DNA of 64,000 nucleotides from Hamadaea tsunoensis DSM 44101 (GTDB taxonomy: Bacteria > Actinomycetota > Actinomycetes > Mycobacteriales > Micromonosporaceae). The stretch covers positions 124,001-188,000 of the forward strand of contig NZ_AUAX01000006.1 in the NCBI RefSeq assembly GCF_000428945.1, given 5' to 3'. The notes beneath the pieces are model-generated. The model had not been told where the DNA came from. It did not search any database and was given only the letters and a program-made list of their open reading frames with translations. Position 1 is the first letter of the stretch, and every line of letters begins with the position of its first letter. Position numbers and translations under genes: made by a program. Positions 12,816-56,830 of the stretch are shown piece after piece.

Positions 12816-12824
12816 TTATCCACA
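12816..12824 (+). promoter_or_regulatory. DnaA box
   Basis: TTATCCACA is a perfect DnaA box inside a short direct repeat (TTGATGAAGTT twice), 27 nt upstream of the parS site 4 core. Confidence 0.6.
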
Positions 12825-12850
12825 GAGTTGATGAAGTTTTCCTCAGGCCT

Positions 12851-12866
12851 CGTTTCACGTGAAACG
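12851..12866. promoter_or_regulatory. parS: parS site 4
   Basis: CGTTTCACGTGAAACG has the perfect 14-nt core with C/G flanks. It follows a DnaA box by 26 nt. Confidence 0.92.
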
Positions 12867-13005
12867 GAGTCGTGCAAGTCGCGCAGTTACCCTCCGGAGC
12901 CGATCGTGAGCACGTAAAACGTGCTGCCGAGGAGTACCCCAGGACATTCACGTGACATCGCGTACGCCGATCGTGCCCTGGGTCGCACTGAGTTTCTCCA
13001 CACAG

Positions 13006-13014
13006 TTATCCACA
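13006..13014 (+). promoter_or_regulatory. DnaA box
   Basis: TTATCCACA is a perfect DnaA box flanked by an imperfect dyad TTTCTCCACA / TGTGGAGAAA (12993-13040). It precedes the parS site 5 core by 37 nt, repeating the box-then-parS arrangement seen 190 bp earlier. Confidence 0.6.
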
Positions 13015-13050
13015 GGGCGGCGGGATCTTCTGTGGAGAAAGTCGGTCGGT

Positions 13051-13154: not shown

Positions 13155-14084
13155 GTGGCTGACGCACCCCTCCCCCTGCCCGCCTTCACGACGTGGGACA
13201 CGTTCCCGTTCGAAGGCACGTTCAACGTTAAGACTCTGGATCCGCCGGTCGCCGACGAGCCCGCCCGCAAGGGTGAGGAGATCGCAGAATGCAAGGCATG
13301 CCAGGCAAGCGACGACTCGTACATCTGGGTGAATGAGCGCTGGCGGGTACGCGCGATGGACCGTCCGACGGGCCTGCCGATGGTGCTGATCCTGGAACCT
13401 CGGTCGCATCTCGACATCGGGGACTTGTCGAATCTTCTCGCAGCCGAACTCGGCGTACTGACCGTACGCGTCGAGCGGGCGATCCGGTCGCTGGATGAGG
13501 TGGCACGCGTACACGTGAACCGTTGGGGAGACGGAGCGGCGCACCTGCACCTCTGGTTCATGGGGCGGCCGAAGGGCCAGCTCCAGTTGCGCGGCTCGTT
13601 CCTGCCGATGTGGGACGACATCCTGCCGCCGGTACCCGAGTCGCAGTGGCGGGAGAATCTCGCGCACATCGCCGCCTGGTTGGAAGCGTTTGGAGGTACG
13701 GCCCACGCGCAGCCGCCGAAGATTGAGTGGCAGGCGCCCTCGCGTTTCCTGGGTGAGAGCGAGCTTTCGCCTGAGCCGGTGATCGGACGGGCCTCGGTGC
13801 CGAGCGCCTCGGTCTTGGAGTCCGGGGCCGGACTCGATGCAGATGCTGGATCCAACGCGCATGCCGGCCCCAGCACGACTGCCGGACCCGAGACCACCAG
13901 GCACAGTACGGGCATCGTGCCCAGTGCGGGCGTCGCGCCCAACGCGGCTGCGGGAACCGCGACGGAGGAGCCCACCGCAGCGACGTCTCCGGTAGCCGCT
14001 CCCAGTCCGGCGACTCCCATCGTGGCGGCCCACATTGAGCCGACAAAGCTGGAACCCGCGACCGGTACGCCCAACGTTTCCTAA
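13155..14084 (+). CDS. HIT-like domain protein of unknown function
   Basis: The 309-residue product has a folded N-terminal part (about 1-200) resembling the HIT/GalT fold: a CKAC pair near residues 44-47, a strand-rich region VLILEPRSHLDIGDLS, a helix with RAIRSLDEVARVHVNRWGD, and the His-rich strand AAHLHLWFMGRP in the place of the HIT triad. The triad is incomplete (HxHxW rather than HxHxH), so catalysis as a nucleotide hydrolase is uncertain. The last 100 residues are Ala/Thr/Pro-rich and probably disordered. The GTG start lacks a clear ribosome-binding site. It stands alone among parS sites, and parS site 6 forms its terminator hairpin. Confidence 0.75.
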   Translation: MADAPLPLPAFTTWDTFPFEGTFNVKTLDPPVADEPARKGEEIAECKACQASDDSYIWVNERWRVRAMDRPTGLPMVLILEPRSHLDIGDLSNLLAAELGVLTVRVERAIRSLDEVARVHVNRWGDGAAHLHLWFMGRPKGQLQLRGSFLPMWDDILPPVPESQWRENLAHIAAWLEAFGGTAHAQPPKIEWQAPSRFLGESELSPEPVIGRASVPSASVLESGAGLDADAGSNAHAGPSTTAGPETTRHSTGIVPSAGVAPNAAAGTATEEPTAATSPVAAPSPATPIVAAHIEPTKLEPATGTPNVS

Positions 14085-53459: not shown

Positions 53460-54944
53460 TCAGCTGCCGTTCCGGGCGGCCAGCCGCATACCGTCGACGA
53501 GCTCGTCCACCTGGCGGTCGTTGAGCTCGTCCGCGACGCCACCGGCGATCTCCTGCAGCCGCGCGAGGGCGATCTCGTTGCCGTAGGGGCTGCGGCGCAA
53601 CAGCTCCGCGAAGTACCCCGCGGCGTACGCGAGCCGGAGATGCGGATCCGCCGCCGCGAAGGAACCCGACAGTTGCCGGGCGAGCACGGTGGACCCCTGC
53701 TCGGCGGCCTCGTGCGTCTTCGGATCCTGCCAACGCACCTGGACGCGGGCGATCGTGTCCCCCGCCGCCACGCCGTCCGCCAGCCGCACGACGTACAGCG
53801 CGGTCACGGAATGGCCGGGGCCGACCTCGCCGCCGTCGACCGTGTCGTTGCGGAAGTCGGAGGCGGCCAGTTTCCGGTCCTCGTACCCGACGAGGCGGTA
53901 CGACTCGACCGCCGAGGTGAAGGTGACCTGGGCCTTGGCGTCCATCGCGCGTACCGAGACGTTGGCGGGCAGCCGGTGGACGAAGACGTCACGGGCCTGC
54001 GCCCGGTTGCCGACGTAGACCACGAAACCGTCGCCCTTGTCGGCCAGCCGTTCCATGAGGCTGTCGCCGTAGTCCGAGCCCACTCCGACGCCGAGCAGCG
54101 TGATCTCCTTGTCGGCCTCGGCGCGTACCTTGCGCAGGATCGGGTCGGCCTCCGTGTCGCCGACGTTGGCGAGCCCGTCGGACAGGACGATCACCCGGTT
54201 GGACGCCTGCGGGCGGAACCCGTCCCGGGCTACTTCATACCCCGTCGTCAGGCCTGATTCGAGGTTGGTGCTGCCGCCGGCGTGCAGTGAGTCGATCCCC
54301 TTGTCCAGGTCCTCCAGCCGGCTCACCGGCGTCATGTTCAGGCGTACGGTCGCCCGGTCGTTGAAGGTCACCAGCGCCACGGAGTCGGTGGGGCGCAGCT
54401 GGCGGGCCAGGTAGTGCAGGGCGTCCTGGACGAGGTCGAGCTTGCCGGTCTCCGACATCGAACCCGAGACGTCGATGACGAACGTGAGCGCCACGTCCGG
54501 CCGGGTGCCGCCGGTGTCCGCCCGCGTCTGCAGGCCGACCCGCATCAGGCGTACGCGGTCCACCTCGTCCTCGTGGTGCGCCGAAGGCATGGCGGAACCG
54601 TCGACGTTGACGGTGAACCCGTCGCCGGCCGGCTGCGGGTAGTCCATGTCGAAGGCGTTGACGAACTCCTCCGGCCGGGGGTTCGACGCGTCCGGCCAGC
54701 GCCCGTCCTTGAGCTGCTGCAACGCGTACGTGTAAGAGGCGGTGTCCACGTCGAGGGCGAAGGTGGACGGGCGGTCGGCGGACGTCTGCGGACTGATCTC
54801 GCCGCCGCCGCGGTTGTCGCCGCCTTGCGCGGGCTTGTTGACACCGTTGCTCGAGCCGCTGTCCGACGACGAGCAGCCGGCCAGCGCGAGCCCGGCGAGG
54901 GCGACACCGGCCAGGAAGACGGTCGCACCCCGGGTGAATCTCAT
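53460..54944 (-). CDS. von Willebrand factor A domain lipoprotein (YfbK-like)
   Basis: The 494-residue protein has a lipoprotein signal peptide with lipobox LAGC (Cys about 23), a Ser/Gly linker, the YfbK-type N-terminal domain (TFALDVDTASYTYALQQL, RPEEFVNAFDMDY), a vWA domain with the MIDAS motif DVSGSMS (about 157) and a C-terminal DUF3520-like region. It should sit on the outer face of the membrane and bind partners through a metal. Function unknown. A 17-bp direct repeat overlaps its promoter region. Confidence 0.88.
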   Translation of the reverse strand: MRFTRGATVFLAGVALAGLALAGCSSSDSGSSNGVNKPAQGGDNRGGGEISPQTSADRPSTFALDVDTASYTYALQQLKDGRWPDASNPRPEEFVNAFDMDYPQPAGDGFTVNVDGSAMPSAHHEDEVDRVRLMRVGLQTRADTGGTRPDVALTFVIDVSGSMSETGKLDLVQDALHYLARQLRPTDSVALVTFNDRATVRLNMTPVSRLEDLDKGIDSLHAGGSTNLESGLTTGYEVARDGFRPQASNRVIVLSDGLANVGDTEADPILRKVRAEADKEITLLGVGVGSDYGDSLMERLADKGDGFVVYVGNRAQARDVFVHRLPANVSVRAMDAKAQVTFTSAVESYRLVGYEDRKLAASDFRNDTVDGGEVGPGHSVTALYVVRLADGVAAGDTIARVQVRWQDPKTHEAAEQGSTVLARQLSGSFAAADPHLRLAYAAGYFAELLRRSPYGNEIALARLQEIAGGVADELNDRQVDELVDGMRLAARNGS

Positions 54945-54963
54945 GGCCTACTCCATCCCGTGA

Positions 54964-54995
54964 AGGTCATCGTGAGTCTGAGGTCATCGTGAGTC
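54964..54995. repeat. tandem direct repeat upstream of the vWA gene, possible operator
   Basis: AGGTCATCGTGAGTC occurs at 54964-54978 and 54981-54995, 17 bp apart, 20-51 nt upstream of the lipoprotein start. Direct repeats near 1.5 helical turns are typical of response-regulator sites, but the binder is unknown. Confidence 0.5.
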
Positions 54996-55214
54996 GAGGA
55001 AACTGCCGGATTCGACGGCTGGAGTTCCCGCACGCTCCGTTCGTGTCCGTAGCGCAATGTGAACGCAATCGCCGTGACCGTATCGATCTCGGGCTGTGAC
55101 CAGCGGCGGGGAACGTCCGGAAGGCCCGCGGCGTCCACAGCGGATTCGACACGCCGGGCCAAGTTTTTGCCACACACACCCTGTGATTTCCATTTTCGCA
55201 GTTCAGGGGCACAA

Positions 55215-55310
55215 TGTGGATAGCCGGTCGGCAGTTATCCACAAGCTGTGCACAGGGTTACCCACAGGTCCAGCCCAGTTGTCCACAGGTTGTCCAGAGC
55301 TCTGTCCACC
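55215..55310. promoter_or_regulatory. cluster of DnaA boxes upstream of dnaB
   Basis: Within 96 bp lie two perfect boxes, TTATCCACA (55235-55243) and TTGTCCACA (55279-55287), three with one mismatch, TGTGGATAG (55215-55223, reverse), TTACCCACA (55258-55266) and TTGTCCAGA (55290-55298), and a weaker CTGTCCACC (55302-55310). Five read in the same direction. The cluster begins about 205 nt upstream of the dnaB start. Confidence 0.8.
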
Positions 55311-55420
55311 GGGGTGTTTGTCTTTGCGGCACGGGGTTCGTAACGTCAAGTCTTCTGTGCCTGAGAATCAGGGCGGCCGGCCCATACCGAGTCGCGATGC
55401 GAGTGGCGGGGTGGGGTGCT

Positions 55421-56830
55421 ATGTCCATCGATGAGGTACGCGACCAGGCGAAGTTCCCCGTGTCCGGTGCGCCGGCGCAGGCGGAGCGCGGTACGCCCGC
55501 GTACGAGCGCACGCCCCCGCAGGACGTGGCGGCCGAGCAGAGCGTGATCGGCGGCATGCTGCTGAGCAAGGACGCCATCGCCGACGTGGTGGAGATCCTG
55601 CGCTCGTCCGACTTCTACCGCCCGGCCCACGCGACGATCTTCGACGCCGTCGTCGACCTGTTCGGCCGGGGCGAGCCCGCCGACGCGGTGACGGTGGCGG
55701 CCGCGCTGGACAGCCGCGGCGACCTCAGCCGGATCGGTGGCGCGCCCTACCTGCACACGCTGCTCAACTCGGTACCGACGGCGGCCAACGCGGCGTACTA
55801 CGCCCGGATCGTCAACGAGCGTGCCATCCTGCGCCGGCTCGTCGAGGCCGGCACCAAGATCGTCCAGCTGGGCTACGGCTCGGCCGCCGGCGCCGGCCGC
55901 GACGTCGACGACGTGGTGGACCTCGCCCAGCAGGCCATCTACGACGTGACCGAACGCCGGGTGAGCGAGGACTTCGCCGTCCTCGCCGACCTGCTGCAGC
56001 CCACCCTCGACGAGATCGAGGCGGTCGGCGCGCAGGGCGGCGTCATGTCCGGCGTCCCCACGGGCTTCTCCGACCTGGACCGCCTGCTCAACGGGTTGCA
56101 TCCAGGACAGCTGATCATCGTGGCCGGCCGGCCCGGTCTCGGCAAGTCGACGGCCGGCATGGACTTCGCCCGCAGCGCCGCCATCCGGCACAACCTGGCC
56201 AGCGCCATCTTCTCCTTGGAAATGTCCAAGGTCGAGATCGTGACCCGTCTGCTGAGCGCCGAGGCGCGCGTACCCATGCACGTCCTGCGGTCCGGCCAGC
56301 TCTCGGACGACGACTGGACCAAGCTCGCGCGGCGGATGGGCGAGATCAGCGAGGCGCCGATCTTCGTCGACGACACGCCCAACATGAACCTCATGGAGAT
56401 CCGGGCGAAGGCCCGCCGCCTCAAGCAGCGGCACGATCTCAAGCTGATCGTGGTCGACTATCTCCAGCTCATGACCTCGCCGAAGCGTACCGAGAGCCGC
56501 CAGCAGGAGGTCGCCGACCTGTCTCGTGGCCTGAAGCTGCTGGCCAAGGAGGTCGAGTGCCCGGTGATCGCGGTCAGTCAGCTGAACCGTGGTCCCGAGC
56601 AGCGTACGGACAAGCGACCGCAGCTGTCCGACCTGCGTGAGTCCGGCTCGATCGAGCAGGACGCCGACGTCGTCATCCTCCTGCACCGCGACGACTACTA
56701 CGACAAGGAATCGCCGCGGGCGGGCGAGGCGGACTTCATCGTCGCCAAGCACCGAAACGGCCCGACCGACACCGTCACCGTCGCGGCTCAGCTGCACCTC
56801 TCGCGCTTCGTCGACATGGCCATGAACTGA
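55421..56830 (+). CDS. dnaB: replicative DNA helicase DnaB
   Basis: DnaB is the hexameric helicase of the replication fork. The 469-residue protein has the N-terminal helical domain (PPQDVAAEQSVIGGMLLSKDAIADVVEIL, from about 32) and the RecA-like ATPase with Walker A GRPGLGKSTAGMDFA (about 240-254), FSLEMSK, Walker B LIVVDYLQLM (about 344-353), the arginine-rich RESGSIEQDADVVILLHR and C-terminal KHRNGPTDTVTV. No intein interrupts it. ATG 55421 is preceded by GGGGTG; the frame is open further upstream through the DnaA-box cluster without similarity. Confidence 0.97.
   Translation: MSIDEVRDQAKFPVSGAPAQAERGTPAYERTPPQDVAAEQSVIGGMLLSKDAIADVVEILRSSDFYRPAHATIFDAVVDLFGRGEPADAVTVAAALDSRGDLSRIGGAPYLHTLLNSVPTAANAAYYARIVNERAILRRLVEAGTKIVQLGYGSAAGAGRDVDDVVDLAQQAIYDVTERRVSEDFAVLADLLQPTLDEIEAVGAQGGVMSGVPTGFSDLDRLLNGLHPGQLIIVAGRPGLGKSTAGMDFARSAAIRHNLASAIFSLEMSKVEIVTRLLSAEARVPMHVLRSGQLSDDDWTKLARRMGEISEAPIFVDDTPNMNLMEIRAKARRLKQRHDLKLIVVDYLQLMTSPKRTESRQQEVADLSRGLKLLAKEVECPVIAVSQLNRGPEQRTDKRPQLSDLRESGSIEQDADVVILLHRDDYYDKESPRAGEADFIVAKHRNGPTDTVTVAAQLHLSRFVDMAMN

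Follow-up and report, generated by a model that had tools for sequence, protein, structure and literature searches.

To our knowledge, little is understood of how bacteria match the supply of their replicative helicase to the initiation of replication. Some clusters of DnaA boxes outside oriC, such as the extra-oriC cluster of Streptomyces and datA of E. coli, which has an IHF site within the cluster, are sites of the titration or inactivation type. For dnaB itself, the region upstream of the gene is among the five top DnaA regions of M. tuberculosis, binding there has been shown in vitro and in vivo for both M. tuberculosis and M. smegmatis, and the M. tuberculosis DnaA mutant I282T combines weaker binding at this region with lower dnaB expression, according to the portions of the report available (PMC7738170). 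Caulobacter dnaB belongs to the DnaA regulon, with predicted boxes upstream and DnaA-dependent expression (Hottes 2005, as cited in the accessible text of PMC8203912), and the same text gives autoregulation of DnaA at its own promoter as reported for many bacteria (PMC8203912). In a literature search that most subscription papers fell outside, PMC7738170 was the only report found to link DnaA with the dnaB upstream region or promoter.

The box array in front of dnaB

The window, i.e. the whole stretch of 64,000 nucleotides that was analysed, is G000:C6:124001-188000 of a 9.48-Mb genome (G000, the organism's own). The dnaA gene is encoded on the minus strand and ends at window position 58, at the left window edge; just beyond that edge is oriC, where 800 bp contain 33 box-like places with two mismatches or fewer, ~55.5 kb from the dnaB array. 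Boxes were scored, and mismatches counted, against the consensus TTRTCCACA. The first-pass annotation had reported six boxes with starts 11-23 bp apart, ~55 kb from the dnaA end, and we recovered every one of them; with the weak box at 55246 there are seven, six of which share one orientation, and the steps from box to box are 20, 11, 12, 21, 11 and 12 bp (Table 1). They stand in the intergenic region 54945-55420 between the divergent YfbK/VWA gene and dnaB, where the order from left to right is an AT-rich T-tract stretch, GCAGTTCAG, the reverse box, the array, a promoter-like motif and dnaB.

The cluster is real and beyond chance. Allowing one mismatch at most, the window contains 18 boxes, and 100 bp at dnaB hold 5 of these; in dinucleotide shuffles of the window (n=400, 25.6 Mb) the densest 100 bp held 1 box in 360 shuffles and 2 boxes in the other 40. 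Genome-wide there are 45 copies of exact TTGTCCACA vs 12 of the reversed pattern. Rfam gave no matches at gathering scores in the window and 11 other loci. The dnaB gene of the window is uninterrupted; many dnaB genes of the phylum are open frames of ~760-1460 aa that match in pieces, as inteins would give.

Table 1. Features around the dnaB box array (positions in the window) and composite loci in other families
Feature	Position	Strand	Details
Divergent YfbK/VWA-domain gene	53460..54944	-	divergent neighbour of dnaB
Distal module: T-tract into degenerate box	55161..55174	+	AAGTTTTTGCCACA; inside most AT-rich intergenic 40-mer
Local GCAG.TCA motif	55198..55206	+	GCAGTTCAG; CAG.TCA core starts 36 bp before first array box
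DnaA box	55215..55223	-	CTATCCACA; 1 mismatch, reverse orientation; absent from family consensus
Array box 1	55235..55243	+	TTATCCACA; perfect
Array box 2	55246..55254	+	CTGTGCACA; 2 mismatches; weak by consensus, well conserved in family
Array box 3	55258..55266	+	TTACCCACA; 1 mismatch
Array box 4	55279..55287	+	TTGTCCACA; perfect; 44 bp (4 turns) after box 1
Array box 5	55290..55298	+	TTGTCCAGA; 1 mismatch
Array box 6	55302..55310	+	CTGTCCACC; 2 mismatches
Predicted -35 element, dnaB promoter	55318..55323	+	TTGTCT; 28 bp after box 5 start
Predicted -10 element, dnaB promoter	55341..55346	+	TAACGT; 17-bp spacer
dnaB, replicative DNA helicase	55421..56830	+	PF03796 E 3.8e-105, PF00772 E 1.7e-35; predicted start ATG 55421
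YgjP-side composite loci, other families			L281, L284, L286, L287, L288, L292, L293, L297, L298, L300

Conservation, helical phase and promoter geometry

By dnaB, the closest named relatives are Micromonosporaceae (80 loci kept of 474). We anchored 199 loci with tblastn, all of which were placed, and dropped identical upstream sequences and those shorter than 450 bp, which left 182 distinct sequences, free of shifted copies: 100 from the family and 82 from 29 other families of the class (29 of the 82 being the best loci returned by the search and 53 hand-picked from the table). At least one box with no more than one mismatch was present in the 700 bp upstream of dnaB in 98 of the 100 family sequences (all except L042 and L087), with a mean of 2.73 boxes vs 0.13 in shuffles; two or more were found in 78 and fewer than two in 22. 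Outside the family, 79 of the 82 sequences had at least one box (all except L114, L126 and L142), and in other classes of the phylum 11 of 24 loci had any box, with a mean of 0.75. The boxes point predominantly towards the gene, with 249 towards dnaB and 24 away in the family, and 215 and 65 respectively outside it. In relatives the boxes are therefore conserved together with dnaB, as at a DnaA-regulated promoter, and the absence from close relatives that the first-pass annotation had named as a refutation is contradicted by the family counts.

For the family array we made a sequence model (R1) from 60 of 97 length-filtered sequences, partly chosen by hand, and ran it together with a model of the distal module (R2, described below) on 98 class genomes with stricter filters; dnaB was placed by hand for 70 of them. 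Among the matches listed for these 70 genomes, those directly upstream of dnaB came from R1 in at least 36, from R2 in at least 25 and from either model in at least 41; among the same matches, R1 had none near dnaB in 34 genomes, and neither model had one upstream of dnaB in 29.

The spacings of same-strand boxes in the family cluster at 11-12, 21-24, 32-35, 43-45, 55-57 and 64-69 bp, and 44 bp is the most frequent single spacing (43 of 265 pairs). The period that fitted best was 10.9 bp in the family (resultant 0.79) and 10.8 bp outside it (0.71). When one sequence was drawn per family (30 families, ~51 pairs, 200 draws) the period was again 10.8 bp, with a mean resultant of 0.74 and a lowest of 0.60, and the 99.9% point of the resultant under a uniform null with 60 pairs was 0.40. 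The dnaB boxes thus stand in helical register, a feature expected of a replication origin; phasing in the organism's own oriC is weaker, with resultants of 0.37 on the plus and 0.43 on the minus strand when two mismatches are allowed.

A promoter for dnaB is predicted by its motif and by conservation, with the position of the dnaB start codon aligned among relatives. The TTG of the -35 element and the TA..GT of the -10 element are invariant columns in an alignment of 60 family sequences, and 95 of the 100 family sequences in the wider alignment have TTG...TA...T. When searched for without gaps (spacer 16-18), the promoter was found behind box 5 in 80 of the 100 family sequences, at a distance from box 5 of 28 bp in 78 of those 80 and of 29 bp in the other 2. 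Transcription is predicted to start near 55353, which would centre boxes 1-6 at about -114, -103, -91, -70, -59 and -47. A box cluster adjoins the predicted promoter, the arrangement looked for at a DnaA-regulated promoter: array box 6 ends 7 bp before the predicted -35 element, and none of the family-consensus boxes overlaps the -35 or -10.

Nine other families of the class were examined for the promoter motif and its distance. Behind the last box the promoter follows at 14 bp in f17 (10 of 10 sequences), 13 bp in f16 (5 of 5) and 16 bp in f32 (4 of 4); the distance varies in f18 (14, 14, 39, 39, 39 and 49 bp) and in f2 (16-74 bp, with no promoter in one of seven). The pattern was mostly missing from f15 (found in 1 of 7, at 53 bp), f22 (0 of 4) and f23 (0 of 4), and in f30 it was found in 1 of 6 with no box before the promoter. 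Family f2 very likely includes the mycobacteria, because a DnaB from this family matches PDB chain 2r5u (344.6 bits over 180 residues), which we take to be the M. tuberculosis protein; 6 of 7 f2 sequences have boxes upstream of dnaB. The upstream consensus of f16 also has TCGAACATTTGTTCGA, and that of f2 has TCGAA...ACGTTCGA, between promoter and dnaB, both of which resemble LexA (SOS) boxes.

The geometry of array and promoter in the family is independent of the upstream neighbour gene. The VWA gene is upstream and divergent in 8 of the 80 named family loci and downstream in 1, with five of the loci counted as lacking it containing less than 4 kb upstream. We considered this gene as the owner of the array and rejected it, as it is upstream and divergent in just those 8 loci.

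The distal module and box clusters elsewhere

R2 was built on an alignment selected for CAG.TCA, i.e. conservation of the motif there is by construction, and only motif counts and genome searches bear on it. GCAG.TCA is carried by 69 of the 182 upstream sequences on the dnaB strand, while the opposite strand gives 16 and reversed strings give 5. In 83 cases CAG.TCA is followed by a box at a distance of 11-89 bp, and in 65 of these the distance is 35-37 bp. R2 matches the window at 55148-55210 with 34.9 bits, the sole clear match in the organism's own genome (the next scores 16.5). The most AT-rich 40-mer of the intergenic region is 55161-55200, with a GC content of 0.425 vs 0.325 at the corresponding minimum in oriC.

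Among 30 R2 loci from the class and the organism's own genome (L273-L302), the DnaB N-terminus is encoded at 20 and a YgjP-like peptidase at the other 10, the latter assignment having been checked with PF01863 for one of the ten. In nine of the ten YgjP-like loci a script found the T-tract, CAG.TCA and then a TTG-TA...T promoter 120-141 bp on, and the tenth, L286, has the same layout by eye. L293 continues with a small zinc-ribbon-like ORF and a ThiF-like gene. In the organism's own genome three perfect TTATCCACA boxes, 33 and 21 bp apart, sit between ThiF-like and YgjP-like genes (L268:2758-2820, i.e. G000:C5:395758-395820).

Seven of eight f17 genomes have a weaker R2 match (E 1.4e-5 to 0.006) 35-39 kb from dnaB. 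Five of these loci were fetched and two read; both carry a T-tract, a box, a GGGGA stretch and, further on, CAGGTCA, and L306 begins with the dnaA end. The organism's own oriC contains CGCAGGTCA near the dnaA end, and the R2 search of the genome gave no match in this oriC. As a reader of GCAGGTCAG we considered MtrA, among whose targets in M. tuberculosis the available part of one report places dnaB (PMC11215152), and rejected it: GTCAC direct repeats occur in 0 of the 182 upstream sequences. GTCACAG is mildly enriched (19 of 182 upstream sequences vs 7 of 182 reversed strings).

We tentatively propose, as a possibility rather than as our expectation, an origin-related module of actinomycetes that consists of a T-tract, a box, a GTGGA/GGGGA half-box and GCAGGTCAG, followed ~36 bp on by a phased DnaA array and then a promoter. 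The module would be found at dnaB and beside the YgjP-like gene, with related pieces in oriC, and DnaA, helped by a factor reading GCAGGTCAG, would build the same kind of complex at origin and promoters; the supply of helicase and a second operon might in this way respond together with initiation. The occurrence of GCAGGTCAG at dnaB, at the second locus and in oriC-like stretches hints at a possibly unrecognised actinomycete factor.

The dnaB site is by far the best R1 match of the genome (87.2 bits), yet it is not the sole dense cluster. R1 also matches oriC (25.2 and 18.9 bits), C3:454292 (24.9), C5:395754 (19.4), C36:31152 (17.7), C6:3049 (16.7) and C3:349621 (16.4). At L270:3052-3117 (G000:C6:3052-3117), ~121 kb from oriC on the same contig, five boxes, partly inverted, lie in 66 bp between the ends of two converging ORFs; this cluster is a candidate titration site. 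L267 (G000:C3:454240-454362) has eight box-like sites within an ORF, whose product we take to be carboxypeptidase-like, and these arise from Tyr-Pro-Gln repeats (TAT CCA CAG); it is a warning for scans for box clusters, as codon repeats can mimic boxes. Within the window, 12816-13039 holds a second box group, made up of two perfect TTATCCACA and two TTCTCCACA and lying upstream of ORF 13155-14084, for which there was no Pfam match.

Explanations for the array and comparison with known systems

We consider it likely that the array serves the dnaB promoter as its upstream control region, through which DnaA controls dnaB with one sign or the other. The first-pass annotation had offered a titration site, a DnaA-regulated promoter and a secondary initiation region, and the second of these is the best supported, by the geometry of array and promoter in the family, by conservation and by the mycobacterial binding with its linked effect on expression. 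Counted against it are the two family sequences and three others that lack boxes, the 22 family sequences with fewer than two, the 34 of 70 class genomes in which R1 had no listed match near dnaB, the other families in which the promoter pattern is missing or far from the boxes, and the other dense box clusters of the genome, which are not located at promoters of replication genes. DnaA would fill the row of boxes cooperatively on one face of the helix, as a filament, and the filled array would control dnaB transcription, most likely by activating it; the supply of helicase would then track the DnaA state at which oriC fires. For a filament on the DNA to act on RNA polymerase, it would require both helical register and a fixed distance to the promoter. 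The distal module may also have a role in dnaB control. Since the layout is common to related bacteria, the array probably ties helicase supply to the start of replication. With an array at a fixed promoter distance across the family, and present upstream of dnaB in much of the class, this coupling is directly testable.

As to the sign of control, we lean towards activation of dnaB by DnaA from the array, a reading suggested by one mycobacterial mutant and by the box positions; it is likelier than repression because no consensus box covers the promoter core. Repression within the same control region, i.e. negative feedback on dnaB of the kind seen at dnaA promoters, seems to us unlikely: DnaA autoregulation is widely reported, in the accessible text of PMC8203912, and the last box lies close to the -35 element, but the consensus boxes leave both promoter elements free and the I282T phenotype, as far as the available report gives it, is the opposite (PMC7738170).

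It is rather improbable that the array is primarily a site near the origin for titration or inactivation of DnaA, with its place at dnaB secondary. A dense, conserved array ~55 kb from oriC would suit such a site, as would the recurrence of a similar composite at another locus and the presence in the same genome of the five-box cluster at C6:3052-3117, which has no obvious promoter role. However, the family array keeps its fixed distance to the promoter whatever the upstream neighbour, which a sink need not do, and in the sole known mutant less binding accompanies less dnaB expression, according to the part of the report available (PMC7738170).

A region of secondary replication initiation or helicase loading is very unlikely, because the DnaA-trio signature is absent from all of the 182 dnaB upstream regions. 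A signature of origins is the DnaA-trio adjoining a GC cluster and a box, and trios, GC cluster and box are present in the organism's own oriC (TAATAGTAGGGCCTGTGGA) and in two f17 oriCs; in the dnaB upstream regions a DnaA-trio next to a box was found in 0 of 182. The phased array, the T-rich stretch and GCAG.TCA do resemble part of the f17 oriC, and among 40-mers (89 kb) this stretch ranks in the top 0.13% for AT, but its AT-rich minimum is weaker than that of oriC and the region carries a predicted promoter. The term origin-like, used in the first-pass annotation, suits the anatomy, i.e. the helically phased boxes and a module before the array with a likeness to part of the f17 oriC; a secondary initiation region is not supported. 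GC skew around 55 kb was discarded as a sign of a second origin, as the cumulative skew does not clearly mark even oriC. That the cluster is a chance or compositional one without function is scarcely credible, since conservation already contradicts it: codons can yield clusters, as at C3:454240-454362, but this one is intergenic, exceeds the shuffles and is conserved with its helical phase across families.

The first-pass annotation had called each of its three readings new for the organism, which is partly right: binding of DnaA upstream of dnaB is published for M. tuberculosis and M. smegmatis (PMC7738170), and Caulobacter dnaB is cited as a member of the DnaA regulon (PMC8203912). Helical phasing, the promoter geometry of the family, the class-wide spread and the GCAGGTCAG module are new as far as the literature covered, itself available in part, shows.

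In mycobacteria the dnaB region lies on the other side of oriC. The gene, dnaB (Rv0057) in M. tuberculosis and its homologue in M. smegmatis, and the position of the DnaA region are the same as here, and the mycobacterial account, in its accessible portions, makes no mention of helical phasing, of the geometry of a promoter, of a distal module or of conservation outside mycobacteria (PMC7738170). Caulobacter crescentus, of a distant phylum, likewise has predicted DnaA boxes upstream of dnaB. Smulczyk-Krawczyszyn is said to have described in 2006 a cluster of several DnaA boxes outside oriC in Streptomyces coelicolor, and this cluster and the dnaB array are alike in having several boxes outside oriC. 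Actinobacterial oriC shares boxes of the TTRTCCACA type with the dnaB region, and two f17 oriCs share the T-tract-box stretch and CAGGTCA as well; unlike oriC, the dnaB region is without the DnaA-trio signature and has a short array before a promoter.
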